A stretch of 62,907 nucleotides of DNA from Aurantiochytrium sp. KH105 (Eukaryota > Sar > Bigyra > Thraustochytrida > Thraustochytriidae). Below the pieces are notes generated by a model. It was not told the origin of the DNA. It made no database searches and was given only the letters and a program-made list of their open reading frames with translations. The stretch's first letter is position 1; each line of letters begins with the position of its first letter. Below are positions 99 through 40,753 of the stretch, one piece after another. The DNA is taken from positions 1-62,907 of the forward strand of contig BGKB01000270.1 in assembly GCA_003116975.1 (NCBI GenBank), written 5' to 3'. A program made the position numbers and the translations under genes.

Positions 99-1100
99 TA
101 TTGAACAATCCTATAGGCCTACCCTTTTTTATTTTATTTTTAATTTCGCGTGGGTGATTGGAAGAAGCCGAAACGCAGCAGGCCATGAGGCGACATCTTC
201 ATGATCCCACAGCCGCTGCTCAAACAAAACCCGCAGCTAAAGAAATTATCATTAGCCCACTGTGCAGCAACCCAGCGAACGGAAGGAACACCCGCCGCAC
301 GGCCCACATCCCTCCGCAGTATGGGCGAGGGTCGCCAGCGATCTAGGCGCGGCCCGCAGAGCGACAGACGCAGCGCATACGCTGCAGCGCACACGCCATA
401 GCGCCCACGACCGACGGACGCAGAGGCCCGGCCGCGAAGACCGTCGCGTGGAGGCGCTGCCCGGAGCTGACTGGCTGCTCCGCGTGCTCGCGGCCTGCTC
501 CGCGCCGTTCGACGCGAAGGATTGGCAAAAGAGAAGCAACTTGCCAGGCTTGTCATCCTCATCAAGTGAGCTGTCACGGCTGCGGCTCGATCGAGCAGCC
601 ACTGACAGCTGCAGAGAGCCAGTCGTGTGGCGTTGGCTTGACAGTCACCAGCCGCAGCCGCGGCTGCTGCAACACTTAATCAATCGCTGGCCATGCTTGA
701 TCGTTCGAAGCATCTTGCCTAGGATCGGTGACACATAACAGAGGTCGAAGACTCGAATTCGGCGAGAGATGGCCGCTCGATTGTCGCTGGAGGTATAGCA
801 CGAAGACCAGAATTGTGACACCAGCTTTTCGTGATACAGTACAGCACAGCACAGCACAGCACAGCACAGCACAGCACAGCACAGCACAGCCGCGGGGGTA
901 ACACTACCGGCTGCTCGACTGTCAAGCAGATAAATTCGACAGAAGCCTGGAGACGAAAGTGGAGCTTTCTTTCGACGTGGCTTGCCGCTTGCTCAACGTG
1001 CTTCACCTCCTTCGAGAAGAGCAGCCTTCAGGCACAGGAGCAAAGTAAAGCAGACTCGGATTGTGGAACAAACCAGAAAGATCCGAGGCATTGGAGGACA
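99..1100 (+). promoter_or_regulatory. Upstream region of dynamin-like copy 1
   Basis: About 1 kb without a convincing gene. The first 30 bases after 157 are a scrap of ABCF coding sequence (see the relic at 3704). The remainder is nearly the same as 4106-5001 ahead of copy 2. It holds a GC-rich stretch (300-560) and an ACAGC repeat (841-890). Conservation between the two copies reflects recent duplication and does not by itself show regulatory function. Confidence 0.5.
841..890 (+). repeat. ACAGC pentanucleotide microsatellite, 10 units
   Basis: Ten perfect ACAGC units lie 210 bases before the copy 1 ATG. The equivalent site before copy 2 (4767-4791) has five units, so the repeat has changed length since the duplication. 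An open frame runs through the repeat from a GTG at 831, but copy 2 has no equivalent methionine codon and the natural start is the ATG at 1101. Confidence 0.95.
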
Positions 1101-3703
1101 ATGGCACTTCGCCAGACGGACGTGATGAGCGAAGGAACTGACTTGCGCGTTACTGTGCTGGGGTCGATCAACGCTGGCAAGTCAACGCTATTGAATGCGC
1201 TCATTGGAGCAGAGTTGCTGCCAAGTGCGGCAACGATCGAGACAGCTTGCATTGCAGAGGTGCGTCACGACGCGCGCTTGGAGCCCGGAACATTCAAGTG
1301 CTCCGCAGTGGTCGAAGAAGGCGGAGAACCGACAGAAGTCATCTTCGGCGAACACGAGGATGAGCGTCGTGATTCCCATGTAAAAGTCTTGCAATGGATT
1401 CGGGACAATAACAAGGTCGAAGGCATGCCTCGTCTCACCATTCGCACCAATCTGACGACCGCAGAGCATTACACCTCACTCGGACTCGGGGGCATCAGTT
1501 TTTTTGATGTCCCTGGCACAAACGAAACCAATGGGTATGAGGATCGAGTAAGAGAGGTTGGCAAAGTTCTCGAACGCGCTCACTTTGTCTGCATCGTCGT
1601 GTCCAAGGACGACATCGGCGCCACCAACATGGAGGAACTCGGTGCGCTCGTTCGAAAATACACGAAGCCGTCGTGCCAGGTAGGGCTTTTCATCAACAAA
1701 ATGGATGATGTCGATCTGAAGGAACGCGACAGGATCCAAACATGCGCAGAGACGGTGATTTACAATGAGGAGAGACGCAAGGCGCTCTTTGGACGTCCCA
1801 TCAGCTTTTACTATACAATGGGTAAGGCCGCTTTGCATAGCGCCTGTAGAGGATGCGATCTTGAGGATTGCGATCTCATCGGGACGCATATGGCGATTAT
1901 GCGCCATCTGCTCAAGGCTGAAAAGAAGAAGCAAAAGAAGCTGAACGCTCAAGCAGAAAATCTTTTTGACGAAATTGAAAATCAACAAGGTATCGTGGGC
2001 CCATTTGTTGCCCGGAATAACGATGTCAGCGATGTGGAACAGCGAGCCAGAGACATGCATGATCAAATCGCTCTCGAGACAAGGAAGCTTTCCGGCATTG
2101 ACGCGATTTGGGAAAAGCTCGTTCTCGACATGCTCAAATCTCGAATCCAAATGGTTCAAGACTCGCTCGATATGAGCTCGAGAAGTGTACTGGTGCACTC
2201 GGACTTTGCTGACCTCAAGAAGCTTGCAAAATATGCGCCCGAGGCTGTCGAAGTCCTTGCCAGGCTCCTTTTGCTGCAAAGGTCTTATAAGGAACTGGAG
2301 GTCTCTCTCGAGCTGGCTATTGCAAAGTACGAGAGCGACGTGAATAGGCATCGTGCGGAAATGGACGACTTCATCAAAAAGAGAGTGCCTGACCTTGTCA
2401 TCTCTGTCCTCGAGAACAGCATCTGGAGTGCTGCTTCGTCCGCATCTGTCAAGAGCATTATAGCTTGTGGAACCCTGAAGACAAGATGGGCTATCCAGGA
2501 AAAGCGCGCAAGCGGTCTGTACGATCAAGTGGACCGCGGAAGTCGTGAGGAACTCCAGGTTTATCTCGCGAACTTTATTCGCGACGCCAAGACGCTGCAA
2601 GCGCATGTGCCAGATCCACGGCATGAAGCGAATGTGAGCAAGTCGATCAGCGTAGCCGTCTGTTCGAAGTCACGTAGCTTTGTTCAGCTCTCGAATCGGT
2701 TTGCGGAAAGTGATTGGACAGAAGACGAAGCACACATGGCCAGAGCTTATCAACCGACCTCCATTTCTACTTTACCCAAATCTCTAGGAGATGCGCCCGT
2801 ATGGTTTCCAGATCTGACTGAGCACTTTAAGAGTGCTTTCCAGATCTGACTGAGCACTTTAAGAGTGCTGCAACCGCTCTTGATCCAAATGGCCCAAAGT
2901 TTACGGAAGAACTTTTGGAGCTCGCCGGTAGGGCTACTCAAGCTGGCCTCAAGGCGTCGCCCGGGCTTCGAACCTTTGTGCTGTCGGTGTACCCGGTCAT
3001 TACAGAAGCCGCCGCGTGGTATGCGACCGTGATGCAGGCTCTTGACACGGTCAAATGGGATGTAAGAAGTTTGGGCTTTGCGCGCAAAGAATTTAGCGAT
3101 TGGTGGATTGATCGCCGCGATTCTTGGTTCAATGATCGGAAAACGTCTTCTTCTGGCGGCTTTGTTGACCTCATTGATGGCGTGGGGAAGTATAAGAAGA
3201 AATATCGTGACCGGGAGGTCATAAAAGGCATCGTGAAGGGCGCGATGGTCGGTGTCGGGGCGGGACTTTTGGCCGCGATGGGGGGCGCTTATGTGTGTGG
3301 CGCTCTTACGACCCTAGAATTCGCTGTAGGAGGGTCATTTCTATATAGCAGTGAAGTCTTTGGGGCGCTGAAAGGAGAAAAACGAAGCAAAGAGCGGGTG
3401 GACCGCCGCAAAATTGCATTTGAGGAGTGTGTCGAAAAGTTCGAACCGTTGGTAGACATCCATTTAGCGTCACTCGAAATTCTGCACGCTGGGAAAATCA
3501 CAGCGGAAGATATCCAAAATTTCGTGGACAATGTGAAATGCAATGCACCCTCTATCTACTTCCGGCCACCATCGCAGGTGAAAGCGGTATCAGAGAAGAA
3601 TAAAATTCGATTTTATGATTATGAACAGTTGATTGATCACTTCAGAAGGGATTTGTTAATGTCTCGCTATCAACTCGATCAGTCTCGATGGACTCGCGTG
3701 TGA
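1101..3703 (+). pseudogene. Dynamin-like GTPase, copy 1, disrupted by a 32-bp tandem duplication
   Basis: The first frame (1101-2849) has a dynamin-type GTPase domain: P-loop GSINAGKST, a G3 motif DVPG and NKMD as G4, then helical sequence. At 2806-2837 a 32-base segment is repeated exactly at 2838-2869. Because 32 is not a multiple of three, the frame runs into a stop at 2847-2849, and the rest of the protein continues in another frame to 3703. Copy 2 has a single version of this segment (about 6707-6742). Copy 1 would make a protein with an intact G domain but without its C-terminal third, which holds a hydrophobic, membrane-associating stretch. It may be a pseudogene, a truncated functional form or an assembly artefact. 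Confidence 0.8.
2806..2869 (+). repeat. Exact 32-bp direct duplication that breaks dynamin-like copy 1
   Basis: Two perfect, adjacent copies of a 32-base sequence beginning TTCCAGATCTGACTG (2806-2837 and 2838-2869). No base differs between the copies, so the event is very recent or is an assembly error. Confidence 0.95.
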
Positions 3704-4105
3704 AGGCTGTGAGAGAAACAAGGTTGTTGCCGCCGTTTGGGAGTCGTACGGTGCCATGATTCAAGGATGAGGACGAAGCAGCAGCGGCGGCGAGCTAGTG
3801 CTGCCATGGAAATGATGGTGTTCCAGGAAGACAGGGATGGTGAGGTCCTCGTCGCCAAGCTCGAGCTCTCACAGTAAGTGCACATCGACAGCGACGTTGG
3901 CAGGAACGGCAACTGTGGAAATCCAAACATCAATACGGTGGTAGATCGCAGCAGCGAGGAGAGTCTGGAACGATGTCCCACGAGGAGTTTGGAGCGCATG
4001 AAGTAATTTAAAAGTGCACCTAAAAATGATAGCAAGGAGGAGGGGTCTCGGTTCGCCTGTTAAAAAGAAGCCGAGACGCAGCAGGCCATGAATACGCGGC
4101 GCGAT
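3704..4105 (+). pseudogene. Decayed fragment of the ABCF gene between dynamin copies
   Basis: This stretch aligns with 8121-8545 of the downstream ABCF gene. Shared blocks include GTCGTACGG.GCC, GA.GACGAAGC.GC.GCG, GTGTTCCAGGA, CCAA.(A)CATCAATACGGT versus CCAATACGGT, GGAGCGCATG and GAAGCCGA.A.GCAG. It is riddled with substitutions, indels and in-frame stops and cannot be translated through. Its position directly after dynamin copy 1 mirrors that of the true ABCF gene after copy 2. The tandem duplication therefore once included the 5' part of ABCF, with a breakpoint inside its coding sequence near 8545. A much shorter scrap of the same relic is at about 157-190. Confidence 0.85.
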
Positions 4106-5001
4106 CTTGATAACCCCACAGCCGCTGCTCAAACAACACCCGCAGCTAAGTAAAGAATTATCATTGGCTCAGTGTCCCTCTGTGCAGCAACCCAGCGAAC
4201 GGAATGAACACCCCGCATCCCTCCGCAGTATGGGCGAGGGTCGCCAGCGATCTAGGCGCGGCCCGCAGAGCGACAGACGCAGCGCATACGCTGCAGCGCA
4301 CACGCCATAGCGCCTACGGCCGACGGACGCAGAGGCCCGGCCGCGAAGACCGTCGCGCGGAGGCGCTGCCCGGAGCTGGCTGGCTGGTCCGCGTGCTCGC
4401 GGCCTGCTCTGCGCCGTTCGACGCGAAGGATTGGCAAAAGAGAAGGAAACAATTCAGCCAGGCTTGTCATCCTCGTCAAGTGAGCTGTCACGGCTGCGGC
4501 TCGATCGAGCAGCCTGGCAGCTGCAGAGAGCCAGCCAGTCGTGCGGCGTCGGCTTGACAGCCACCAGCCGCAGCCGCGGCTGCTGCAACACTTAATCAAT
4601 CGCTGGCCATGCTTGATCGTTCGAAGCATCTTGCCTAGGATCGGTGACACATAACAGAGGTCGAAGACTCGAATTCGGCGAGAGATGGTCGCTCGACTGT
4701 CGCTGGATGTATAGCACGAAGACCAGAATCGCGACACCAGCAGCAGCCAGCTTTTCGTGATACAGTACAGCACAGCACAGCACAGCACAGCCGCGGGGGT
4801 AACACTACCGGCTGCTCGACTGTCAAGCAGATAAATTCGACAGAAGCCTGGAGACGAAAGTGGAGCTTTCTTTCGACGTGGCTTGCCGCTTGCTCAACGT
4901 GCTTCACCTCCTTCGAGAAGAGCAGCCTTCAGGCACAGGAGCAAAGTAAAGCAGAATCGGATTGTGGAGCAAACCAGAAAGATCCGAGGCATTGGAGGAC
5001 A
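4106..5001 (+). promoter_or_regulatory. Upstream region of dynamin-like copy 2
   Basis: Near-duplicate of 190-1100. It contains the shorter ACAGC repeat (4767-4791) and ends in a context AGGACAATGG around the start codon that is identical in the two copies. No separate gene is evident. Confidence 0.5.
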
Positions 5002-7497
5002 ATGGCACTTCGCCAGATGGACGTGATGAGCGAAGGAACTGACTTGCGCGTTACCGTGCTGGGGTCGATCAACGCTGGCAAGTCAACGCTATTGAATGCG
5101 CTCATTGGAGCAGAGTTGCTGCCAAGTGCGGCAACGATCGAGACAGCTTGCATTGCAGAGGTGCGTCACGACGCGCGCTTGGAGCCCGGAACATTCAAGT
5201 GCTCCGCAGTGGTCCAAGAAGGCGATGAACCGACAGAAGTCATCTTTGGCGAGCACGAGGATGAGCGTCGTGATTCCCATGCAAAAGTCTTGCAATGGAT
5301 TCGGGACAATAACAAGGTCGAAGGCATGCCTCGTCTCACCATTGGCACCAATCTGACGACCGCAGAGCATTACACCTCACTTGGACTCGGAGGCATTAGT
5401 TTTTTTGATACCCCTGGCTCTCGTGAAATCAATGGGTATGAGGATCGAGTGAGAGAGATTGGCAAAGTTCTCGCACGCGCTCACTTTGTCTGCATCGTCG
5501 TGTCCAAGGACGACATCGGCGCTACCAACATGGAGGAACTTGGTGCGCTCGTTCGAAAATACACGAAGCCGTCATGCCAGGTAGGACTCTTCATCAACAA
5601 AATGGATGATGTCGATCTGGAGGAACGCGACAGGATCCAAACATGCGCAGAGACAGTGACGTACAATGAGGATAAATGCAAGGCGCTCTTTGGACGTCCC
5701 ATCAGCTTTTACTATACAATGGGTAAGGCCGCTTTGCATAGCGCCTGTAGAGGATGCAACCTCGACAAATGCAAGCTTATGGGGACGCATATGGCGATTG
5801 TACGCCATCTGCCCAAGGCTGAAAAGAAGACGCAAAAGAAGCTGAACGCTCAAGCATATGGTCTTATCGACAAAATTGAAGATCAACAAGGTATCGTGGG
5901 CCCATTTGTTGCACCAAATAACGATGTCAGCGATGTGGAACAGCGAGCCAGAGACATGCATGATCAAATCGCTCTCGAGACAAGGAAGCTTTCCGGCATT
6001 GACACGATTTGGGAAAAGCTCGTTCTCTACATGCTCAAATCTCGAATCCAAATGGTTCAGGACTCACTCGATATGAGATCGAGAAGTGTACTGGTGCACT
6101 CGGACTTTGCGGACCTCAGGGAGCTCGCCAAATATGCACCGGAGCAAGTCGAAGTCCTTGCCAGGCTTCTTTTGCTGCAAAGGTCTTATAAGGAACTGGA
6201 GGTCTCTCTCGAGCTGGCCATTGCAAAGTACGAGAGCGATGTGAATAGGTATCGTGCGGAAATGGACGACTTCATCAAAAAGAGAGCGCCTGACCTTGTC
6301 ACCTCTGTCCTCGGAAAGAACAGCTGGAGTACTGCTTCGACCGCATCTGTCAAAAGCATCATAGCTTGTGGAACCCTGAAGACCAGATGGGCTATCCAGG
6401 AAAAGCGCGCATATGGTCTGTACGAGCAAGTGGACCGCGGAAGTCGTGAGGAACTCCAGGTTTATCTCGCGAAATTTATTCGCGACACCACGACACTGCA
6501 ATCGCATGTGCGAGATTCACAGCATGAAGCGAATGTGAACGAGTCGATCAGAGTTGCCGTCTGTTCAGAGCCACGTAGCTTTGTTCAGCTCTCGAAACGG
6601 TTTGCGAAAAATGCTTGGACGGAAGACGAAGCACACGTGGCCAGAGATTATCAACCGACCTCCATTTCCACTTTACCCAAATCTCTAGGAGATGCGCCTG
6701 TGTGGTTTCCAGATTTGACTGAGCACTTATTTAAAAGTGCTGCAACCGATTCTGATTCAAATGGGACAAAGTTTACGGAAGAACTTTTTGAGCTCGCCGG
6801 TAGCGCTACTCAAGCTGGCCTTAAGGAGTCGCATGATCTTCGAACCTTTGTGCTGTCGGTGTACCCGGTCATTACAGAAGCCGCCGCGTGGTATGCGACC
6901 GTGATGCAGGCTCTTGACACAGTCAAATGGGATGTAGAAGATTTGGACTTTGCGCGCAAAGAATTCAGCGATTGGTGGATTGATCGTCGTGATTTCTGGT
7001 TCAAGGATTGGAAGACGTCATCTTATGACGGCAAATGTGACCCCATTGATGGCGTGGAGAAGTGTGAGAAAAAACATCGCGACTGGGAGGTTTTAAAAGA
7101 CAATGTGAAGGGCGCGGTGATCGGTGTCGGGGCGGAACTTTTGGTCCTTGGAGGGACATTTTTCATTCAGTCCGCGCTCGGGAACGCTGGAGTCACTGCG
7201 GCGCAACCATTATTAAAGAGACTCTCGAATGGACTGAAAGAAACTTGGCCTTCTAGAGGCGACGAGTGCGCAGACAGGTACAAAACTGCATTCGAGGAGT
7301 GCAAGAAGAAATTTGCATCATTGGTGAACATCTTCCTCGCGTCACGCAAACTTCTGACGGCTGACAGAGAGGAAGTCACAGCCAAAGGTGTCGAGAATTA
7401 TCTCAGCAGAGTGCGAAGTAATGCACGCTCCATTTACTTCCGACCACCATCCGAGGTGAAAGCAGCATCCAGCAGGCAAAAAATTATGTTTCTATGA
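5002..7497 (+). CDS. Dynamin-like GTPase, copy 2 (intact)
   Basis: An 831-residue protein. The G domain has the P-loop GSINAGKST (residues 21-29), DTPG (136-139) and NKMD (199-202), the G1/G3/G4 set of the dynamin superfamily. A long helical region follows (about 290-700), then a short hydrophobic segment near 712-740 that could insert into a membrane, and a charged tail with the SIYFRPPS motif also found in copy 1 and in the leftmost fragment. Dynamin-family proteins hydrolyse GTP to tubulate, divide or fuse membranes. The layout (GTPase, helical stalk, hydrophobic C-terminal segment) recalls bacterial-type dynamin-like proteins, mitofusins and immunity GTPases. The exact target membrane cannot be read from sequence. 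The ATG chosen is shared with copy 1. Copies differ by scattered substitutions, including non-synonymous changes around G3. Confidence 0.85.
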   Translation: MALRQMDVMSEGTDLRVTVLGSINAGKSTLLNALIGAELLPSAATIETACIAEVRHDARLEPGTFKCSAVVQEGDEPTEVIFGEHEDERRDSHAKVLQWIRDNNKVEGMPRLTIGTNLTTAEHYTSLGLGGISFFDTPGSREINGYEDRVREIGKVLARAHFVCIVVSKDDIGATNMEELGALVRKYTKPSCQVGLFINKMDDVDLEERDRIQTCAETVTYNEDKCKALFGRPISFYYTMGKAALHSACRGCNLDKCKLMGTHMAIVRHLPKAEKKTQKKLNAQAYGLIDKIEDQQGIVGPFVAPNNDVSDVEQRARDMHDQIALETRKLSGIDTIWEKLVLYMLKSRIQMVQDSLDMRSRSVLVHSDFADLRELAKYAPEQVEVLARLLLLQRSYKELEVSLELAIAKYESDVNRYRAEMDDFIKKRAPDLVTSVLGKNSWSTASTASVKSIIACGTLKTRWAIQEKRAYGLYEQVDRGSREELQVYLAKFIRDTTTLQSHVRDSQHEANVNESIRVAVCSEPRSFVQLSKRFAKNAWTEDEAHVARDYQPTSISTLPKSLGDAPVWFPDLTEHLFKSAATDSDSNGTKFTEELFELAGSATQAGLKESHDLRTFVLSVYPVITEAAAWYATVMQALDTVKWDVEDLDFARKEFSDWWIDRRDFWFKDWKTSSYDGKCDPIDGVEKCEKKHRDWEVLKDNVKGAVIGVGAELLVLGGTFFIQSALGNAGVTAAQPLLKRLSNGLKETWPSRGDECADRYKTAFEECKKKFASLVNIFLASRKLLTADREEVTAKGVENYLSRVRSNARSIYFRPPSEVKAASSRQKIMFL

Positions 7498-20760: not shown

Positions 20761-23392
20761 GGCGTCCCTGCCGCCGGTCGCGCCGCCGGCGTTGCGAGTC
20801 TGCTCTCCGTCCAGGTCGGGTCTGCGAGCCTGCGCGCGCGCGAGCGGCCGCGAGCGAGCGGCCTCGCTGCACCCGGCGCGCTAGCGCGAGCGAGCCGCGC
20901 TGCCTGCCTGGCTGCCTGCCTGCCTACCTGCCTACCTCCCCGGCTCCCGGCCGCGGCTCGCCGCTGCTCGTCTTGCGCGTCTGCTGCGCGCGCGCCCTGC
21001 CCTGGCCTGGCCTGGCCTGGCCTGGCCTGCCGCTGCTCGCGCTGGCGCCGTGCGGGCGCGCGCCTTCTGCCTCTGCCGGCCTCCGCCTGCGCCCGCCCGC
21101 CCGCCGGGGCCTGTCTCTCTGCCTGTCTCTCTCTTTGCCCGCCTTTGTCTGTCTGTCTGTCTCTGTGTGTGGCTCTGGCCGGTCTGGCCTTCTTTCTTTC
21201 CTTTCTTTCTTTCCTTCCTTCCTTTCTTTCCTGCCGCCTCGACGCGATGCGACCTCCTCCCGCGCCGCTCGCTCCCGCCGCCTCACAGTGGAGTGTCCTG
21301 CCGCTGCGGTGCGCGCCCCTTCTCGCCTGCTTGCGTGTCTGCGCTCTCTGGGCCGGCTGCGGGGAAGGGAGGAGGGGCGGAGCTCGAGTGGTTTGGTTGG
21401 TGGATTGACTGAGACTGTGACTGGAGTGCTTGCTTGCTTGATTGCTTGCTCGATTGATTGACAGTGAATAATTGATTGATTGATTGCCATTGATTGATTG
21501 ATTGGCTGATTGATTGATTGGTGGCTGATTGATAGGCCGTGGCTGCTGCTGCTGCTTGTGTTGCTTGCCACACCACCAGCGGTGGTTGATGGACGGGCAG
21601 GGAGATTCGGGAGGAGCCTCGGTCGATTCGATGATTGACAGTGGCAGGAATGGGGACCGAGGGTCGAGTTGGAGACCGGCGGAGCAGAGCAGCAGCTGGC
21701 AGCAGCAGCAGAGCAGCCGTGGCGGAAGGGCAGAGCGATTGGCGCCCGGCGCTCAGTGCTCTGTAGTCGTATACAAGCAGGGAGAATCTAGAGAAAAGGA
21801 AGGAAGCAGGGAAGGACGCAGGAAGAGGCCGCAGGAAGGAAGGCGGCGGTGCGTGCGTGCGGAGGGAAGTCCTTGGAGAGCCAACCACCGCGGGCCAGAG
21901 GCCGCCGATGGCGCATGCTGCGCTGCACTGCGCTGCAGCGAGGCCCACGTGCAGGGCCAGGGCGGCAAACTGAACTGGCGTGGCACGCTTGATGCCTGCA
22001 TGCCCGCTTGCCTGGCCCGAGATCTGATTGGCGGGCTGCAGCTGGTGTGGCTGTAGCCGCAGCCGCAGCTGGCTGTGGCTGTGGCGGGCTGGTTCGTGGG
22101 CGAGAGCCTTCTTCCCCGTCACGGTCGCGGCATCATGCATGCATATGCACGCAGACGATGGCGGTCAATGTGGAGGCACGGCCGTCTCTCTCGCTCTCCC
22201 CCGTCCGCATCCACCCTGCTTGTGCTGCCAGCTGCAGAGGGAGGAAGGGGCGGCGGGAATGGTGGGGCCGTGGGCGGTCGCAGTGCAGCTCGCCGTTGCA
22301 TCGTTGCTTGCCTGTCTGCTCTTGTGCTTTTCTGCGTGCTTGCGTGCGTGCGTGCGTGCATTGGAAGAGGTCCGGAGTTGGAGGCTGGGAGCGGCAGGAG
22401 AGCGAATCTAATCTCGCGCGGCAGAAAAAGCCCTGACAGAGAACGGCAGTCTGTCACAAGACCCCGCCCGCCGCACGCGCGTTGAGCAACTTGATGATTA
22501 TGAGCCACCTCGCAGCAGCAGCCGCCGCCGCCATAGCTCGCATCGCACGCACAAGTTCAAGCTTGGGGCGAATTTGCAGCAGCCAGCAGCAGCAGCAGCA
22601 GCAGCAGCAGAGGTCTGTGCTGGAAAAGAGCACGCCTGCTGGCCGTGGGGCGGCAGCCAGCCAAGCAACCAAGCCACCAAGCCACCAACCAACCAGCGCG
22701 AGGCATACGTAGATAAAATGGCGGTAGTAGCTTGACTCGAAGATGCAGGGCGGGCGATCGATTTTATAATTCGAAGGAGAGGTGCCAACCAACTGCGGAG
22801 CCCGTTCTTTGGGGATGGGAACTTGGCCTTGCGGGCGAATCAGCCGCCGCCAGTTGTGGCCGAGATAGATGTGCGCGGCGGCGGCACGGGCTCCGCAGAC
22901 CGCTGTGCTGCTGCCACCATCTGACAGCGAGGTGTCTGCTGCTCTTGCCAGCCATAGCTGACAGACAGTGCGTCTTGCGAGCGAGGGCCGTCCGCGGTGA
23001 TGACTCGGTCTGCACTGGCGACGTCGATCGACGGTCAGGCGCAGACAGTCAGTCCACGGTATGAAATGTGACTGACATGCGCGGTCTCGACTCGGACCAC
23101 CACGACGACTGGCCCTGGCTGGCCGTGTCCGCCCCGACATGTCATCGCAATCGAAACGACCAAATCTTGAAAAGTCGTCGCCAGCAAGGGGGGTCGGGTA
23201 AGTACAAACATGCGTCTCGAAAAATAAAATAAAAAATCCTGAGAACGGAACAAACTCCTAAGATAGGAACAGGAAGAACATTGGTGGTCACGGTATCGTG
23301 CACGATGCTGTCGCTGCGCGGCGATGCGAAGGGAAGTGACAGTGAGTGCAAAGATCCAGCCGTGCAGAGCCGGCACTATTAGATATAGATAT
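20761..23392. other. 2.6-kb intergenic region of low-complexity DNA
   Basis: Upstream of the BTB-WD40 gene and before the transposon. It is built of microsatellite-like tracts: CTGCCTGCCTAC (20900-20940), CCTGGCCTGG (20997-21035), TTTC/TTCC (21190-21235), TTGATTGATTG (21450-21530), GGAAGCAGGGAAGG (21800-21845), GCGTGCGTGCGTGC (22335-22362) and CAGCAGCAG (22576-22612). Open frames in it are compositionally biased and lack any recognisable domain. I see no gene. Confidence 0.6.
23389..23392. repeat. Left target-site duplication (ATAT) of the transposon
   Basis: ATAT directly precedes the terminal CCC of the left inverted repeat and directly follows the terminal GGG at 27962-27965. Four-base duplications are typical of piggyBac elements, but those use TTAA. 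Confidence 0.6.
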
Positions 23393-23402
23393 CCCGATGA
23401 TT

Positions 23403-23430
23403 TCTAATGTGGATTATAATCCACTTTAGA
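23403..23430. repeat. Left subterminal palindrome of the transposon
   Basis: A 28-base inverted repeat with one mismatch pair. The core GTGGATTATAATCCAC is a perfect 16-base palindrome and the outer arms are TCTAA/TTAGA. It pairs with a palindrome of equal length at the right end and is a likely transposase-binding site. Confidence 0.8.
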
Positions 23431-23935
23431 ACCTTTGGAAGGTGGTGCATCAAAAAAGAATGTTGTATTGTGGATTAAGGGTGACATTAAGTACCCTGAT
23501 TCTGCCCGTTTCTAGAGTCTCTAGCCCATTCACGTCTTCGCTTTTGGAGATGACACTGTGTCTGGTTGCTCAGTCTTGCCCAAGGTGCCACACGAAATCG
23601 GCCCAAGGTTGTGCGACAGTTAGTTTACCTTTTTTCGGAGATGGCAAAGTCGCTTTGCCTGCGTTCTGCTCGACGCTCAGTTTGCGGGCTATTCAGGGCG
23701 CGTACCCAAGCCCGCGGCTGCGTACAGGCCTTCTAGCAGGTCGCTTGCGCTGGTGAACGAGGCCGAGTGGCCTAGCCCGCCGGCGCAGCAAGCACCACGC
23801 TCAGCACGAGCTGCGAAAACGACATCTTCGTGGAACCTGCGATCTAACCATCACTCTAACCATCGCAACCTGGCCGAGGGAACGCAACCTGGCCAAGCGC
23901 AGGCAACGCGACGCAACGGAGAACCTGAAGGATCG

Positions 23936-26900
23936 ATGGAAGCCGTGAGGTGCAATGCGTGCAACGAATTTGGTCACAAACGTTCAAATCACAAGGATTG
24001 TAGAATGAACAAGAAACGTCGAACAGACTCTGCCGTCGATGGGCCATCGTCTTCGAACACCTCAAGCACGGTATGCGACACCAACTTCCAGAGTGGTCCA
24101 TCCCGTACCGCGTCTTGTTCATCGTCGACCTCTGCTTCGAATTGCGTAGCTGCATCTGCACCAGCTGTGACGGTCTCGAACGCGCCAATCTCGTCAGCAA
24201 CAGCGCCAATGCAGGCAGCAACCGGAACAAGCTTTCGCCAAAAGTGGATGAAGCTCCACCAAGAACCTTTGAAGCTTGTTTCGCGGGATGAAGCTGCGAG
24301 ACTCTGCGGCGTGGATGTCATGGCCAAGCACCATGTTGACTCGATCCTTGACACTCTCGACAGTGTGTGTCGTGAAAAGAACAAAGCCGAGCCTTGGGAC
24401 GAAACGAGCCTTTTTCTCACAATTCTTGGTGCTGACGGCAAGCATCATCTCCTTAACTCGATGTGCCAAAGCCTACTCATGGCGGGGAAAGCTGAAAGTC
24501 ATGAATGGGAGTTTCTTGCCTTCCTTGCCCAGCTCTTCTGGACCACGGGATATACCAAGGCGACCAAGAAAAACTCTTTCGAGCTTCTTTCAACTTTTAT
24601 GACGATGAAGGGATATGCCGGTACGGACGTACTCTTAGACTTGACGCGATTCAACACTCTGCAGAAGCACTTTCGAGGATTCCCACCGCAAGCATCGGCA
24701 AACGCTTCGAGTCATCTGGATGAGACGGACAATGCAGCGAAGATGCATTCTCTTCAGGAGAAGCTTGCTGAAATCACGCTACGATTGTTTGCTAACAAGA
24801 ACCTTCGAGTCACTATCGATGACAGAAATCTTGGAACTGTTTCCGCGAGTAACCCGGTGAACACGTACCGTCCGCGCAAGCGCCATCAGAACGGCGCCGG
24901 CTCCGATGCAAGTGCAGACGCTATATTTCGTGTGAAGCTGTTTGGCCAGCTCTATGATCGCCAGTACAACCAGGCTCAGGTCCTTGAAAAGATTCTGCAA
25001 CGCATCAAGGATGCTGCTGGCGGGGATGTTGCTGGAGTACAGGTTTGCCTTGATCGAGGTTATCCTTCGGAAGAGCTATACAAGCTCTGTGCAAGGCTCG
25101 GATTTGACCTTATTGTGGTCAACGATAAAGAGCGACATCAGGGGAATCCATTTCTATCGCACACTGCTCAGAAGGATACCCGAGCCAAGTACGTAAACCG
25201 TGGGTGGGCGACGTCAAATCTCAACATCCATCCAAAATTCCTTGTCGACGATGCTCCCAAACTTGGTAGCGAGATTTTTGCTGCAAGTAAGAGTCTGACG
25301 CGTGGCTCTGGTCGATCAAAGGTCATTGCTCATGCTTATGCTGTTCGCGAGTATGGTGACGCCAAGCGATCACGCATCCATCGCTTTGTTTCAATGCTAC
25401 CATCTGACATGGAGGACGCTTTTAAAAACACGTTCGTCTTTGAGTCCTCCGGTCGCGTTCTTGAAAGCATTGCGCAGACATGGCTGTTTTATCCTGCTCC
25501 AAAATCTCGCCGTCCAACACCGATAGTGACAGCTGATTCTGAGAACGACATGGAGACTTCGAGTGTTGCAGAGACTTGTCTCGATGATGGCGAAATTGCT
25601 CTTGACGGCGATGACTACGAGGACGAAGAATACGAAAGCAATAGTGAGGTCTGTGAAGGCGAAGAGAACCCTGAAGATGCTGGTGCATGCGTGGCACATT
25701 GTGACGACGAAGTATGCGATGCTTCACAATCCGATCGAAACAGAACGACCAGCCCCTCGCACTCCGAGGACATGGAGCCTCTGCCCAACGAGCCTATGAC
25801 GGATGCAATGCGGAGAATAATTGAGGCCCCTTCCCCTGAACGCAAGGACGTGGAAGCGCACATTTCCGCATCGGTTGTCCCATTAACAGCGGGCCAACGC
25901 TGTGCAGATTGGTTTATGCTCAAGATGCTTCTTATCACAGGTACGTCAGCTCAGCAAATTGCAAAGGAGGACGCTCGATGTAGGCCTTTTCTGTACGAGG
26001 ACCCTACGCGCACAAAGCCCCCCCAGGTCCTGACCTCGAGTGCGCTGAGCAGGATGCTATGTGCCGGGTGGTTCCATGTCAAAAAACCAGACGGAAGTAA
26101 GGCAAACCGGGCAATGGCGATTGGGATCATCAATGAGTCGGGAATTACTCGCCAACTACGCAAGAAAAAGTTCGTGGATGCTGTGTTTGAAATTGGCTTA
26201 GTCCAAAAGAAGGGAAGACCGGGTCTCGGAGTGAGCGCTGACAATATCATCGTCATTCGCCCACCTGGTGAGACAAACCGTGCTGCTCGCATCGTGGCAC
26301 CATTAGAAATTAAGACGAAAGTCTCGCCACGCACCCAAGATCGTCCAACTAAGATTTCCAGGAGACACGGGCCATATTTCTGCTGCAATGTGGGTTCCAC
26401 AAAATGGTTCGAGGCCGTCCCAACCGAGTATCGTGGTCAACTCCTTCACCAGGCGGCCATTTACGATTCTGAATATGTGGTGTTTTGCGTCGGAACCACA
26501 AGGACAATTAACTACGTGGTCCTTATTCGATCCCCTCTTCAAACTCGCCAGAAGTGGCTTCAAGCGTTTGAGGAGGTGGAGCGCCGGTTCATCGACTGGG
26601 CTTACGCTGCCTCTCCTGCCTTATCATCGTCGGCCATTCCTTGCGCTTACACAGAGGAAGATCGGAAGCTTCTCGCCTCCCGACTTCCTCTTTGGAGCGC
26701 CTATCACTCGCGTCTTAAGTCAAGTGGGATTTTCGTCCCTGTCCGGCTAACACGCTCATTGGTGCAGTATTACTACAGCGCCTCAAAGCAGGGGGTGGAT
26801 GGCCTTGATGATTACTCAGAGCGCTTTGACACTCGCGCTTTGAAAACCAATTGGGAGACTAAGGTGGTAATTGGCATGGTTACCGACGTGCTGATCAATG

Positions 26901-27544
26901 CGCTGATCGTGTGGCGGATCATTATTACATCGAACAAACTCGGTGGCGAATGGCAGAGCTTGAAAAAATTCCAACAAGAGTGCTCAAGGAGCTGCCACAT
27001 CAGCGATTTTGTGAAGCAGGTTACGCTGGGCCTTCTCGCCAAAGCGAGTGGTCTCAAGCGGGGCCTTTCAAACGAACATGTCATTGGCAATGCAACGGAG
27101 TTGGGACGGCCGGTACAGGAGAATAATGGCCATGTCACCACAAGGAGGCTCACAAATGACGAACATGCCAAGCTGAGAATTTCGAATGGAAAGCGTGACG
27201 TCATTCAAAGCGCGAATACGAACAGTGTAAAGACACTTCGTCTCAGCGGGAATTCTCATCCAGAGGTAGGGTGCAACCAGAAACGATGCGTGGTGTGTGG
27301 CGAAGGATCCCGAAAGCGTTGTAGTTTCTGTAATGTTACCCTCCACGTCAGGCTTAAAACCTCAACAAGCCAGACCAAGACTTGTTGGCGGCAGTGGCAT
27401 GAGGATGACATTGTTCGGCGCCGCAACTATGCTCGTCGGTCACCCACCGCGTCTTCAAGCCATTCTGGAAACAGTACACCGCAATCTTCGCATCACTCGG
27501 GTTCAAGCACGCCATGCTCTCATACTCATCATAGCGCGCCTTAG
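23936..27544 (+). CDS. piggyBac-like DDE transposase with an inserted YqaJ-type nuclease domain
   Basis: A 1202-residue protein from the ATG at 23936; the frame is open back to 23624 but has no earlier ATG. Order: a zinc knuckle at the extreme N-terminus (CNACNEFGH...C, residues 6-22); helical DNA-binding region; first half of a piggyBac DDE core with Asp in VTIDDRN (295), Asp in VCLDRGY (373) and probable third Asp in REYGDAKRSRIHRFV (475); an acidic linker (about 530-620); a PD-(D/E)XK nuclease module with GQRCADWF...ITGTSA (653-672), LGVSAD (764-769), LEIKTK (790-795) and a downstream GQLLHQAAIYDSEYVVF; the second half of the piggyBac core, YYYSASKQGVDGLDDY (945-960), matching the YNxxMGGVDxxDQ region; and a C-terminal Cys/His cross-brace domain (1113-1155). 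The nuclease signature is that of YqaJ/lambda exonuclease. It lies inside the transposase fold. All key acidic residues are present. Confidence 0.85.
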   Translation: MEAVRCNACNEFGHKRSNHKDCRMNKKRRTDSAVDGPSSSNTSSTVCDTNFQSGPSRTASCSSSTSASNCVAASAPAVTVSNAPISSATAPMQAATGTSFRQKWMKLHQEPLKLVSRDEAARLCGVDVMAKHHVDSILDTLDSVCREKNKAEPWDETSLFLTILGADGKHHLLNSMCQSLLMAGKAESHEWEFLAFLAQLFWTTGYTKATKKNSFELLSTFMTMKGYAGTDVLLDLTRFNTLQKHFRGFPPQASANASSHLDETDNAAKMHSLQEKLAEITLRLFANKNLRVTIDDRNLGTVSASNPVNTYRPRKRHQNGAGSDASADAIFRVKLFGQLYDRQYNQAQVLEKILQRIKDAAGGDVAGVQVCLDRGYPSEELYKLCARLGFDLIVVNDKERHQGNPFLSHTAQKDTRAKYVNRGWATSNLNIHPKFLVDDAPKLGSEIFAASKSLTRGSGRSKVIAHAYAVREYGDAKRSRIHRFVSMLPSDMEDAFKNTFVFESSGRVLESIAQTWLFYPAPKSRRPTPIVTADSENDMETSSVAETCLDDGEIALDGDDYEDEEYESNSEVCEGEENPEDAGACVAHCDDEVCDASQSDRNRTTSPSHSEDMEPLPNEPMTDAMRRIIEAPSPERKDVEAHISASVVPLTAGQRCADWFMLKMLLITGTSAQQIAKEDARCRPFLYEDPTRTKPPQVLTSSALSRMLCAGWFHVKKPDGSKANRAMAIGIINESGITRQLRKKKFVDAVFEIGLVQKKGRPGLGVSADNIIVIRPPGETNRAARIVAPLEIKTKVSPRTQDRPTKISRRHGPYFCCNVGSTKWFEAVPTEYRGQLLHQAAIYDSEYVVFCVGTTRTINYVVLIRSPLQTRQKWLQAFEEVERRFIDWAYAASPALSSSAIPCAYTEEDRKLLASRLPLWSAYHSRLKSSGIFVPVRLTRSLVQYYYSASKQGVDGLDDYSERFDTRALKTNWETKVVIGMVTDVLINALIVWRIIITSNKLGGEWQSLKKFQQECSRSCHISDFVKQVTLGLLAKASGLKRGLSNEHVIGNATELGRPVQENNGHVTTRRLTNDEHAKLRISNGKRDVIQSANTNSVKTLRLSGNSHPEVGCNQKRCVVCGEGSRKRCSFCNVTLHVRLKTSTSQTKTCWRQWHEDDIVRRRNYARRSPTASSSHSGNSTPQSSHHSGSSTPCSHTHHSAP

Positions 27545-27919
27545 GCTTGCAACCAGCACGTTGAGTATGAGTACAGTTTACGAAGTGCCATGGCAGAGAG
27601 ATCGATAGGATTTTCTCGCGTTTCGAACATAGCAACTTGTATTCTAACTCAAAATGATCTATATAGAAATTTTGAGCTCCAAACTTGCTCTGTAGACCTG
27701 CTAGATCCGCACAATCATCGCCTACATGAAGCGAGCAAACACGACTCGGCCCATTGAAACGAAAGCTGTAACGCTTGTAACCGAATTTTCAACTGATAGT
27801 TCAAAAACACTGCTTATTTCCTATACTTATTGTCATCCTTAGTCAACAATACGATATTCCTGTATCTCTGCACCACCGGGCCGTGAGGGCCGATTAATTA
27901 GGAAATCGTCATATAGGTG
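27545..27919 (+). other. 3' non-coding part of the transposon
   Basis: 375 bases between the transposase stop and the right palindrome. AT-rich, with no further ORF of note, and ending in GGAAATCGTCATATAGG before the palindrome. Confidence 0.6.
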
Positions 27920-27947
27920 TCTATTGTGGACCTTCGTCCACAATAGA
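27920..27947. repeat. Right subterminal palindrome of the transposon
   Basis: Perfect 12-base arms (TCTATTGTGGAC) around a CTTC loop. It faces the left palindrome and has the same length and core. It is followed by TTTCTGTCATCGGG, the right terminal repeat. Confidence 0.9.
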
Positions 27948-27961
27948 TTTCTGTCATCGGG

Positions 27962-27965
27962 ATAT
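27962..27965. repeat. Right target-site duplication (ATAT) of the transposon
   Basis: ATAT follows the terminal GGG and matches the ATAT before the left end. Confidence 0.6.
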
Positions 27966-36254: not shown

Positions 36255-39200
36255 CTAATACAACAATGCGGTTTTGGTCTCAGGTTCGGACCCTCGGACA
36301 TGCAAGATGTGTACTGACCCGATAACGTCACCAATAACGAAAACACTTCCCTGCCGAGCTGTCTTTTCGATTGCGTTGTCCGTCGTGAAGCCTATGACTT
36401 TGCTTACCTTCACATGCGTTCCGTTCTCAATGTTCACCAAAGTCTTCGTTCCAAGTGCAGTCGATCCCTCCGCCTCATTCGCGTCGAGTGCCTCGCCCGT
36501 TCGAGCGTTCCAGTAACGAGTAGTACCATCGTTAGACTTTGAAATGACGGTATCGCCCTCGATGGCCACGCTGCTGACCGAATCAGAGTGTCCCTTCAAA
36601 ACGTGCTTCTCCTCGCCCGACGTAGCATTCCAGATGCGCACCGTCTTGTCAGAGGATCCACTCACGACCGTATCGCTCTCAATCGCCACGCTGCTGACTG
36701 CAAACGAGTGCCCTTCCAACACGTGCTGTTCCTTGCCCGACGTAGCGTCCCAAATGCGCACCGTCCTGTCCTGGGACCCAGTCACTATCGTACCGGCGTC
36801 AATCGCCACGCTTCTAACCGAACCAGAGTGCCCCTTCAACACGTGCAGTTCCTTGCCTGACGTAGCGTCCCAAATGCGCACCGTCCTGTCCTGGGACCCA
36901 GTCACGACCGTATCACCCTCAATCGCCACGCTGCTGACTGCATCAGAGTGCCCCTTCACCACATGCTGCTCCTCGCCCGATATAGCGTTCCAGATGCGTA
37001 CCATCTTGTCCGTTGACCCAGTCACGACCGAATCGCCCTCAATCGCCACGCTCAAGACCGTAAACGAGAGCCCCTTCACCACGTACTGCTCCTCGCCCGA
37101 TGTAGCGTTCCAGATGCGCACCGTATTTTCTTCTGAGAAACCCCCGCCGGACCCAATCACAACTTTATCGCCATCAATCGCCACGCTTAAGACCGCCCCG
37201 AATGGCCCCTTCAAAACGTGCTGCTCCTCGCCCGACGCGGCGTTCCAGATGCGCACCGTTCTGTCCTGGGACCCACTCACTATCATATTGCCCTCGATAG
37301 CCACGCTGCTGACCGCTTTAGAGTGCCCCTTCAACTCGAACTGCTCCTCGCCCGACGTAGCATTCCACACGCGCACCGTCTTGTCTCCGGACCCACTGAC
37401 GATGGTGTTGCCCTGTATCGCCACGCTCAAGACCGGACCAGTGTGCCCCTTCAGGACGTGCTGCTCCTCGCCCGACGTAGCGTTCCAGATGCGCACCGTC
37501 TTGTCAGAGGATCCACTCACGACCGTATCGCTCTCAATCGCCACNCCTGGGACCCACTCACTATCATATTGCCCTCGATAGCCACGCTGCTGACCGCTTT
37601 AGAGTGCCCCTTCAACTCGAACTGCTCCTCGCCCGACGTAGCATTCCACACGCGCACCGTCTTGTCTCCGGACCCACTGACGATGGTGTTGCCCTGTATC
37701 GCCACGCTCAAGACCGGACCAGTGTGCCCCTTCAGGACGTGCTGCTCCTCGCCCGACGTAGCGTTCCAGATGCGCACCGTCTTGTCAGAGGATCCACTCA
37801 CGACCGTATCGCCCTCAATCGCCACGCTTTTGACCGCAAACGAGTGCCCCTCCAACACGTGCTGCTCCTCGCCTGACGTAGTGTTCCAGATGCGCACCGT
37901 CCTGTCTTCGGACAATCCCCCACCGGATCCAGTCACGACCGTATCGCCCTGTATCGCCACGCTGTTGACTCTCCAAAAGTGCCCCTTCAACACGTGCTGT
38001 ACTTTTCCCGACGTAGCGTCCCAAATGCGCACCGCATTGTATCCAGACCCAGTCACAATTGTATCGCCCTCAATCGCCACGCAATTGACCGGATCAGAGT
38101 GCCCCACTAACACGTGAAGCAAGGGGTCGCGGGGATGAGTAAGGGCGACGCGAACAGGCTCTAGCCATGGCTGATCAGGTGTTTGCAGACTGCGTACCAA
38201 GGGATCTTTCGAGTCGTGTCCAAGACGCGCCAGCACTTGCGACGCAAGTTCGTTTGGGTCGTAGCTGAGGGCATGCACTGCTTTGCTCAGGAAGCGGGGC
38301 GTATCACTTTCGGGCGCAAAGTAGATACCGAGTTCGACGCAGTCGCTAATGAGATTTCCGATTGTGGCGCGCCTTTGCGCTTCATCGTCACCGACAGAGA
38401 TGGCGCTCCTTACCCATGCAAAGTCATTCAGGAGCGCGAAAGCCTTAGCGCGCTCGCCGCTCTTGACGAGGTGAAAGATGGCGTGACGGAGAGAAAAATC
38501 ATTGTCGCGCGAGCTGCTACAGTATTTGGCCAAGGCTTCATGGCCATCATCAATGTCCATGCCAAGATTTCCACTCAGATGAATATCAAGCAGCCAGTCT
38601 GCCATTCGCTTGTGGACGAGCGCCACACGACCATCGTCGCGTCGATATAGGAGGTTGCTCGCGTCGTCAACCATATCATCCGTATCATCTTGGTCTGATT
38701 GCAGGATTGCACTTAGTTGCTGGACACTCAGCGGTTCACGAGCAGCTACGATCGGCGCCAGGAGCATCTTGTACTTTTCCTCATCACCAATTTTTGTTTG
38801 CAGGCCCTCAAGGTACACGTGAAACATGGCGCCAAGCCCATAAGGAATGGCGTCTTCGTGAGAAATGTCCTGCAAGGTCAGCAATCCGCCTCGCTTTTCC
38901 TCGTGTATCCGGCTCAGGGTTTCGGGAAGAAAGGTTGTCCAGAGAAAGAGACCTTCGGATCGTTCGGAGAGAATCTTGGCGCAAGAAGCAACGTCTTTTG
39001 GTTCCACAACATCACTCATGTCGTGTAACAAATGCTCGATATGAAGCTCGATGTCGCGAAGGTTTTCTTCGTCCTTGAGCTTCAGCACTTTGGAATCAAG
39101 GCTGTTGTTGGTGATAACGCTTCGAATCTCGCCTTCTGGACGTGTGCTCACGACCAAGCTGAGCCATGCTGGCATCACGTCCTTCCACGTGCAAATGATC

Positions 39201-40753
39201 TTTCGCAAAACATCGTCGCTCTTGCTGCACTCGTCGAGAGCGTCGAGCACGACCACTTGTCGCATCTGGCCTGTGCCGAGCTTGTTCAAAGGATCGACAA
39301 GAATTGTTTTGAAAAGACCCGCCAGCGTCTTTTCTCGAAGACCCTCCGAGCTTACTTGATCGAGTGCTTCAGGGAAATGAGACACGGTCTGACACAGTTG
39401 CCAAGCAATGCTCAGAACGGCTTCATTAGGTGAAGCCGCGGTCCCATCATCGTGTCGAAAGAAATGGTACGCTGCCACCAAGATGCGCGAGCGCTCTTTC
39501 TTGCTTCGACGCCACAAGCTACGCACCCGAGACGACTTTCGGCGCGGTTCGATGCTCTTTTTAGCATCTACGTTGGTCATGAAAGCGCCACCACGATGAC
39601 AAAGCTCGGCCATGATGACGCTTTTGCCGACGTCGCCGTCGCCCACGAGAATGAAGACGGCACTCTGTTTCTTGTTGCACCAGTCGCAAAGCTCGTCAAG
39701 AGTTTGACGCCGCGTGCCGACAGTGTAGCTTTCTGCCTTTTCTCTAGTCCATGCCTCGGAGCTGCAGGGGCGCAACCGATGACGAATGCGGCACATGAGG
39801 GGTGTCAGATCTGACGAGGCCTCTGGGAAATCGATGCGTGACCATATTGTGCCGACAAGATGCGTTATGGCTTCGTCCGACAGTGTCGATAGATCATCGG
39901 GTGACTGTTTATTGAGAGCGAGTTGGAATTGCCCCTTCCATTGGGTCACGGCATCGGCCATGGTCGGTTCTAGCGCAGCGACCACAATCCGATCTGCGCG
40001 GTTCTCGCGGGCGTCCAGAAATTCTCGGACGCATTTCTCGCGGCGGTCTCCTCGGTTCACCTTGTCCATGTACCCCTCGGTTGCGAGGACGAGGAAAACC
40101 TTGGATAATGCAATACCTTGTGACACGCTCTCGTCGGCGCTTTGCACCCCCTGGTTTTCGTCAAGCCATATTTTTAAATCATGCTGGTCTTTGAGGCGCT
40201 TCGCGATCTCTTTTGCCATGTCGCGTGCCTTTCGGTCGTAAGAAATAAATGCGTCGAAGATCTTGCGGAGGTGCTTGCCGCTTCCCTTGAGTTGGAATTG
40301 GTCGAGAAGATGAGAAATGATGGCTGTTTCAGGCTCGCAAAAGTCAAATTGTACCTCGTCGGCCATACGATAGCTAATTGCACCGTGCCACGTCCTTTGG
40401 AAGATCATGGTCTCGTCCACGATGACTGGAACGAGCGCATGGGGCAGCTTGCGAGCTACGGCCTCGACGAGTGATTTATTCCACTGCAATGCACCGCTCA
40501 CTACCATCGCGGCCACGTTTGCAACCTTGGCTTCCTCTTTCGCCTCTGTGACGTGGCTCGCGGTGCGAACGGGCGAGCGAAGGTGAGGTTGGATCCTGTT
40601 GATCAAAGCTTTGGCTGCTTGCCCATCTGCCGGGTCGTAGACCACGAGGACGGCAATGCTCGCAGGCAGCACCATTTTCGGCTCATCTTCGGTCCGTACT
40701 TCATTGTCGTGACCTCTCTTGAAGAGCGCAAGCAAGCGCGTCGTCCAGCTCAT
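36255..40753 (-). CDS. TIR-NACHT-WD40 STAND protein (interrupted by one unresolved base)
   Basis: One gene read in two frames on either side of an 'n' at 37545: 40753-37546 and 37544-36255. Residues 30-150 resemble a degenerate TIR-like domain. A clear TIR follows (164-262; FDAFISYDRKARDM, LKIWLDENQG, SVSQGIALSKVFLVLATEGY), with Glu208 placed like the catalytic Glu of TIR NADases. The NACHT ATPase has Walker A GDGDVGKS (371-378), AAYHFFRHDDG and Walker B VVVLDALDEC (501-509). From about residue 905 come 13 or so WD40 repeats of about 40 residues, nearly identical (VAIEGDTVVTGSxDRTVRIWDATSGKEQHVLKGHS type). This is the NWD/STAND layout used by fungal incompatibility and other NLR-like receptors: WD40 senses, NACHT oligomerises, TIR signals. 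Near-identical WD repeats imply concerted evolution. The frame break coincides with the assembly gap and a repeated ~280-bp segment, so I treat it as an artefact. Confidence 0.85.
37545..37545. other. Unresolved base, probable contig join inside the WD40 array
   Basis: A single n. About 280 bases to its left (37265-37544) recur almost exactly to its right (37547-37826), with one difference near the end. Two contigs ending in the same WD repeats were probably joined without resolving the overlap. True repeat number is therefore unknown. Confidence 0.75.

Follow-up and report, generated by a model that had tools for sequence, protein, structure and literature searches.

A piggyBac-related transposon of Aurantiochytrium sp. 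KH105 with a predicted lambda-exonuclease-type nuclease inside its transposase

The transposase-nuclease reading frame

The DNA analyzed comprised positions 1 to 62,907 of contig BGKB01000270.1 from the thraustochytrid Aurantiochytrium sp. KH105 (GenBank assembly GCA_003116975.1), and this whole stretch of 62,907 nucleotides is referred to below as the window. At 23393..27961 it carries a transposon whose transposase-nuclease open reading frame (ORF) occupies 23936..27544 and encodes 1202 amino acids (aa), with the ATG at 23936 and the stop codon at 27542-27544; features are on the forward strand unless noted. The ORF contains zero internal stops, and the same stretch read in the other five frames contains 34-63. 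All motifs described in an initial annotation of this DNA were found in the intact ORF and in the order claimed (VTIDDRN, VCLDRGY, REYGDAK, GQRCADWF, ITGTSA, LGVSAD, LEIKTK and GVDGLDD). From its N terminus, the window protein is predicted to consist of a zinc-knuckle-like motif, a transposase core with a triad of catalytic aspartates (DDD; D1 to D3) that holds a lambda-exonuclease-type nuclease between D2 and D3, and a Cys/His domain at the C terminus. The aligned catalytic residues of both the transposase and the nuclease are intact.

The N-terminal motif (23951..24001, residues 6-22: C6, C9, H14, H19 and C22) matched Pfam zf-CCHC_6 weakly (E = 0.45). An acidic linker is located at 25526..25855 (residues 531-640), with 36 D+E against 6 K+R over residues 530-640. 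The predicted C-terminal zinc domain (27272..27400, residues 1113-1155) has seven residues, C1118, C1121, C1129, C1132, H1137, C1150 and H1155, that were invariant in all 14 family members aligned from the same genome; its comparison by sequence with the cysteine-rich domain of piggyBac was not significant (z = 1.6; 27/300 shuffles equally good).

Transposase core

The catalytic residues of piggyBac are D268, D346 and D447, and its RNase H fold is broken, following strand five, by an insertion domain at residues 372-433 (PMC7351741). Residues homologous to all three are present in the window protein. D295 (24818..24820) and D373 (25052..25054) aligned with D268 and D346 in a family profile: residues 95-530 of nine members, compared by hhalign with piggyBac and piggyBat, gave E = 1.9e-5 over 227 columns, and the score of 46.9 was reached by none of 60 column shuffles (best 23.5). 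From the window protein alone these two positions were not significant (pairwise z ~0; 107/300 shuffles equally good in a motif test). The D1-D2 spacing is 78 residues in the window protein and in piggyBac, and 72 in piggyBat.

The segment after the nuclease that contains GVDGLDDY matched piggyBac residues 436-515 (phmmer against PDB, E = 0.0031; z = 12.7, 0/300 shuffles equally good), and in a three-way alignment P, Y, G, V, D, D, W, M and N were common to the window protein, piggyBac and piggyBat. Because this segment covers piggyBac D447, the third catalytic aspartate was assigned to D955 (26798..26800), within GVDGLD. Among individual members, this region was significantly similar to piggyBac in L176 (z = 8.4), more weakly so in L206 (z = 5.5) and L174 (z = 5.1), both just over the best of 200 shuffles, and not significantly so in L203 (z = 2.7, best shuffle higher). 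The initial annotation had named VTIDDRN, VCLDRGY and REYGDAK as the three sites in piggyBac order, with GVDGLDDY as the segment following the last of them; the first two sites stand and the third is replaced. The REYGDAK aspartate (D475) was ruled out as it varies in the family, being N in L201, L175 and L176 and S or another residue in further members.

Profile searches, which the annotation had suggested for both parts, gave the nuclease matches described below. No Pfam DDE_Tnp_1_7 match above the cut-off was obtained for the window protein; the model scored 18.6 bits in L176, under the cut-off of 22.4, and none was listed for L203, L206 or L208. DDE_Tnp_1 was above the cut-off in L206 and below it in L203. 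A Pfam scan of the transposase core with the nuclease removed returned no family, and NCBIfam gave nothing beyond one weak hit, to IS1182 and covering D2 (E = 0.019).

Nuclease domain

The predicted YqaJ/lambda-exonuclease domain lies at 25862..26626 (residues 643-897). As annotated, it falls inside the catalytic region: alignment places it after D2 and before D3, at the D3-proximal side of the region corresponding to the piggyBac insertion domain. Pfam YqaJ scored 22.5 bits with the isolated domain, barely above the cut-off of 22, and 18 bits with the whole protein, under it. PHROGs matches were to exonuclease and RecE-like families (E = 1e-4 and 2.2e-4), and comparison with 10 phage exonucleases gave seven invariant columns in common. 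The catalytic set of YqaJ and lambda exonuclease (E, D, E-x-K, Q) is complete, with E734 (26135..26137) corresponding to lambda E85, D769 (26240..26242) to D119, E791 and K793 (26306..26314) to E129 and K131, and Q835 (26438..26440) to Q157. A structure model built on an alignment of 38 viral-contig homologues (15-22% identity) adopted the PD-(D/E)XK lambda-exonuclease fold, and its closest folds in structural comparison were lambda-type exonucleases, in agreement with the fold expected of residues 640-890. The domain is accordingly described here as a predicted nuclease of this type within the transposase chain. No match to the nuclease was found by tblastn against phages at E <= 1.

Element ends and target site

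The complete element measures 4,569 bp without its target duplication (23393..27961), and its ends are common to deleted copies at unrelated sites. It is bordered by ATAT on the left (23389..23392) and right (27962..27965) and bounded by terminal inverted repeats, CCCGATGA at 23393..23400 and, on the reverse strand, its counterpart at 27954..27961 (TCATCGGG on the forward strand); together with the duplications these form 12-bp inverted repeats, ATATCCCGATGA, at 23389-23400 and 27954-27965. Inside them lie a 30-bp palindrome on the left (23402..23431), a candidate site for a dimer of the C-terminal zinc domain, and a 28-bp palindrome on the right (27920..27947). In the 62.9-kb window only these two palindromes scored at least 11, each adjoining one inverted repeat. 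A half-site of the left palindrome is repeated further inward as TTGTATTGTGGATTA (23463..23477; direct repeat D5, with a TGTGGA core). The two ends can be aligned with each other over some 46 bp; 1/2000 shuffles and 21/19,506 random pairs from the window aligned equally well. GC content is 51% in the element and 64% and 58% in the flanks. Positions 24817-24831 and 27945-27959 form an exact 15-nt inverted match, linking the stretch that encodes the first catalytic motif (IDDRNL) with the right end of the element.

Two loci, L179 and L180, carry a common internal deletion that joins 24312 to 26628, and their ends are exactly those of the window element. Two more left ends were found, on contigs C281 and C46, and the flanks of these four insertions and that of the window were mutually dissimilar at E 1e-8. 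ATAT bordered 8/8 ends available among close copies; one end scan considered only sites with at least three A/T among the four flanking bases, and the family comparison used no such filter. Exactly one ATAT was present at the empty partner site of the C24 insertion, on C13, and at both empty C17 partners of the C36 insertion, which shows that insertion duplicates the ATAT. The flanks of the C36 insertion and the empty C17 site (L180, L228) were 98-100% identical, and this insertion may therefore be recent. A second copy of the window locus without the element was found on contig C219; its junction is too diverged to show a duplication, and the edit count is if anything nearer to a reading without one. 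For C281 and C46 only left flanks were available, so their empty partners are uninformative on duplication; one C281 partner, L234, departs two bases ahead of the end of ATAT. The more distant pair L175/L176 yielded no left end and one right end each, next to ATAT in L176 and ATCT in L175 (AGAT read inwards). Ends in other lineages were sought as ATATCCCGATGA with at most two mismatches, a search that lineages with different ends would escape. By these comparisons, the window element is a complete copy of a piggyBac-related, putatively cut-and-paste DNA transposon that uses ATAT, and its ends have been mobile in the past.

Family in the same genome

The family was searched for in the genome of origin (76 Mb, 367 contigs), giving 54 matches, many of them pieces of one gene. 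Fourteen long ORFs, including that of the window (L171), were aligned; they were picked as long frames like the query, a selection that favours the full architecture. L204 and L207, with longest frames of 612 and 562 aa in the stretch taken, were left out, and the matches on C184, C133, C84:86444, C40, C152, C310, C73 and C241 stood outside the full-protein analysis, the C133 part (L184) being used for substitution rates. L175 has one stop within its genome match, and its longest frame (1244 aa) was used. Elsewhere, no relative was confirmed in the viral_contigs or genome_contigs collections.

Transposase and nuclease parts occurred in identical order in 14/14 ORFs, whose three main parts range from 92% down to 18% identity with the window protein. 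This recurrence, with the fold model and the piggyBac matches, bears out the annotation's central claim that one polypeptide joins a piggyBac-like transposase to a lambda-exonuclease-type nuclease; further loci carry the same joined frame, so a chimeric assembly and a separate exon are both ruled out. The DDD triad was intact in six of the 14, and the triad together with all five nuclease residues in four (L171, L176, L203 and L206); L205 and L208 retain the triad and have lost nuclease residues. Residues of both active sites were lost in L181, L182, L202 and in L173, whose protein is a near copy of that of the window. D2 is changed in L172, L173 and L175, to N or G in the first two.

L172 and L173 (on C36 and C17) have full-length ORFs 90-91% identical, in frames of 1222 and 1267 aa, and decayed inverted repeats. 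The pairs L181/L182 (C296, C23) and L202/L184 (C69, C133) are candidate domesticated genes, with frames of 1173-1233 aa in L181, L182 and L202; in L181 and L182 the C-terminal Cys/His block is repeated in the alignment. Four 204-aa frames with equal or near-equal scores, L196-L199 (C195, C21, C103 and C256), cover only query residues 976-1175, from after D3 to the zinc domain (42%).

All six locus pairs compared aligned at about 92-95% in their longest stretch, several with flanking DNA, and such pairs are therefore not independent insertions. Second copies, at 95-98%, also exist for the DNA flanking the insertions in the window, C24 and C36. The paired loci may represent separated haplotypes or a duplicated genome.

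Selection

The ratio of nonsynonymous to synonymous substitution rates (dN/dS) over the whole ORF was 0.22-0.53 in nine close pairwise comparisons. In both deep comparisons dN was lowest in the nuclease among the three named parts: 0.195 for L171-L174 (others 0.274 and 0.327) and 0.328 for L171-L176 (others 0.450 and 0.536). The ratio was 0.222 for L202/L184 and 0.225 for L181/L182. This constraint, present although L181, L182 and L202 have lost their active sites, suggests host use of these genes. Ends of L181, L182, L202 and L184 were not found using the repeat of the window element.

Other features of the window

Positions 162-3272 and 4065-7144 form a tandem duplicate at 90% identity, the second copy of which is overlapped by an ORF for a dynamin-like GTPase (5002-7497). 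A further ORF at 36546-40753 has TIR, NPHP3_N and WD40 domains and tandem 120-bp repeats; we take it to resemble NOD-type immune receptors.

Comparison with known elements

Stand-alone phage-type enzymes (lambda exonuclease, LHK-Exo and RecE) share the predicted fold and catalytic residues of the window nuclease, and differ in lying outside any transposase. Herpesviruses carry an alkaline exonuclease, and in teleosts a piggyBac-like transposon is reportedly joined to a herpesvirus; these fusions are said to comprise complete viral genomes in which the nuclease has a gene of its own. In Tn7 a nuclease, TnsA, acts beside the DDE transposase TnsB, and TnsA is a nuclease of the restriction-enzyme kind. 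The Tn7 proteins are separate and bacterial, with an endonuclease acting on 5' ends (PMC9527255).

The element resembles piggyBac and piggyBat in the order of the DDD triad, the GVDxLD helix, a palindromic target duplication of 4 bp made of A and T, 5'-CCC at the ends, palindromes in subterminal positions and a predicted Cys/His domain at the C terminus, and piggyBac in the D1-D2 spacing of 78. Unlike piggyBac, it duplicates ATAT, not TTAA; ends in CCCG, not CC[C/T]T, the terminal motif of the superfamily (PMC2872659); has a nuclease of about 255 aa and an acidic linker between D2 and D3, and a zinc-knuckle-like motif at the N terminus; and gives no DDE_Tnp_1_7 match above the cut-off. As it shares neither TTAA nor CC[C/T]T, it is classed from its sequence as piggyBac-related, in a lineage beside canonical piggyBac.

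Nucleases are recurrent in eukaryotic DNA transposons, among them ISL2EU, KolobokE, KolobokD and Dada. KolobokE has a lambda-exonuclease-like nuclease, and Kolobok is characterized by a C/DxxH motif, 5'-RR at its ends and duplication of TTAA (PMC9587614); the window element has instead 5'-CC ends and ATAT, and a scan of its protein for C/DxxH returned only DGKH at residue 167, ahead of D1, and CVAH at 585, within the acidic linker. ISL2EU likewise encodes a YqaJ exonuclease, but as a separate ORF alongside a Harbinger-like transposase, with an A|AT|T target and GG ends (PMC4482050, PMC9179366), whereas the YqaJ domain of the window element lies within the transposase ORF itself. The role of the extra ORFs of PHIS elements, ISL2EU included, is stated to be unknown (PMC4482050). 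In Dada of Laccaria and Ectocarpus an exonuclease also lies within the DDE domain, past its second D, but it is a DEDDy, DnaQ-type 3'-5' enzyme between the second D and DxxH, in elements with a DDE triad that target small-RNA genes (PMC3706591); the window nuclease is predicted to be of the PD-(D/E)XK kind. The statement in the initial annotation that no element of this design had been described is thus too broad for the general idea; for piggyBac, no earlier report of such a nuclease was found in the literature searched (Repbase and subscription papers lay outside it). The excerpts of articles naming both piggyBac and YqaJ described no such protein; they concerned filter words for transposon genes, viral domains such as YqaJ able to fuse with transposases (with a citation of the piggyBac-herpesvirus fusions), and recombineering.

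Proposed mechanism

In piggyBac, excision proceeds through hairpins on the 4-nt flank and leaves 4-nt overhangs, with re-insertion at the same tetramer, and a palindromic 19-bp repeat at bp 17-33 is bound by a dimer of the C-terminal zinc domain (PMC7351741); in piggyBat such dimers bind imperfect palindromes (PMC11707139). By analogy, dimers of the window transposase would bind the element ends with their zinc domains on the subterminal palindromes, the ATAT flank would be closed into hairpins whose opening leaves 4-nt overhangs, and the excised element would join a new ATAT. The predicted nuclease adjoins the counterpart of the insertion domain, a part of piggyBac that lines the channel for flanking and target DNA; the nuclease would degrade the exposed 5' strands of the broken donor, and this resection would steer repair to homologous copying, restoring or multiplying the element, over simple closure. 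The reading as a whole, a piggyBac-related ATAT transposon whose built-in nuclease resects the donor break and favours homologous copying, is given a probability of roughly 0.6. Taken alone, the resection role is our best guess at what the nuclease does, held at slightly under even odds.

Several observations weigh against the reading as a whole. The nuclease may be dispensable, since two of the six members with an intact triad (L205 and L208) have lost residues of it. For piggyBac no nuclease is needed. Modelling from a single sequence failed (predicted local distance difference test score, pLDDT, 34.6), and because the successful model was built on distant viral-contig homologues it indicates compatibility with the fold rather than independent proof. 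The nuclease had the lowest dN of the three parts in only 4/9 close comparisons, and for L171-L172 its dN/dS was 0.655 against 0.305 for the part before it; as far as these rates go, it is not the most constrained part within the close group of the window element.

That the likeness is due to chance, or that the ORF is a pseudogene or was created by chimeric assembly of a transposase with a viral exonuclease, deserves practically no credence. Such an account would fit the failure of D1 and D2 to beat shuffles when only the window protein is used, and the sub-threshold YqaJ score of the full-length protein, but the 14/14 ORFs with both parts in one order already contradict it, and the fold match and dN/dS below 1 count against it. 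An origin of the family mostly as domesticated host genes from an old transposon, the window copy being a late mobile relic, is unlikely, although not negligibly so: L181, L182 and L202 keep their long frames after losing both sets of catalytic residues, dN/dS is near 0.22 in both candidate pairs, and L172 and L173 remain open despite decayed ends. It has to contend with the intact ends and ATAT duplications of the window copy, L179 and L180, the last two having empty partners with one ATAT.

Two further accounts accept the element and give the nuclease another task. It might have no role in resection and serve as an enlarged insertion domain gripping flanking or target DNA, its catalytic residues kept only through recent descent. 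We consider this improbable: the loss of nuclease residues in L205 and L208 with the triad retained speaks for it, but all five residues persist in the window protein and in L176, L203 and L206, which have intact triads and are 19-58% identical by region, and nuclease dN was lowest in both deep comparisons. Alternatively, the nuclease might itself do part of the cutting, of the non-transferred strand or of hairpins, like TnsA beside TnsB; this seems less probable still, as its closest folds are lambda-type exonucleases, which need a free end. The position of the domain, adjoining the stretch where DDE/D transposases bear insertion domains (PMC7351741), favours the gripping role. Cleavage of 5' ends by the Tn7 nuclease beside its DDE transposase (PMC9527255) offers a precedent for cutting, here with the nuclease fused into the catalytic domain, but piggyBac cuts both strands via a hairpin with one active site (PMC7351741).

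Implications

The favoured reading, a piggyBac-related ATAT transposon with a resecting nuclease, extends tentatively to a wider picture: a distinct ATAT lineage beside piggyBac may have captured a recombination exonuclease in the DDE insertion region, so that one protein would excise and resect in a homology-coupled manner, and its descendants in the same genome may be host genes that lost catalysis and kept DNA binding. Here a predicted lambda-type exonuclease shares its chain with a piggyBac-like transposase. As relatives of this transposase serve in genome engineering and their structures are understood, the role of such nucleases becomes open to direct testing by point mutants. ATAT is a natural contrast to TTAA, both being palindromic with a central TA, and would open the target rule of the superfamily to examination.

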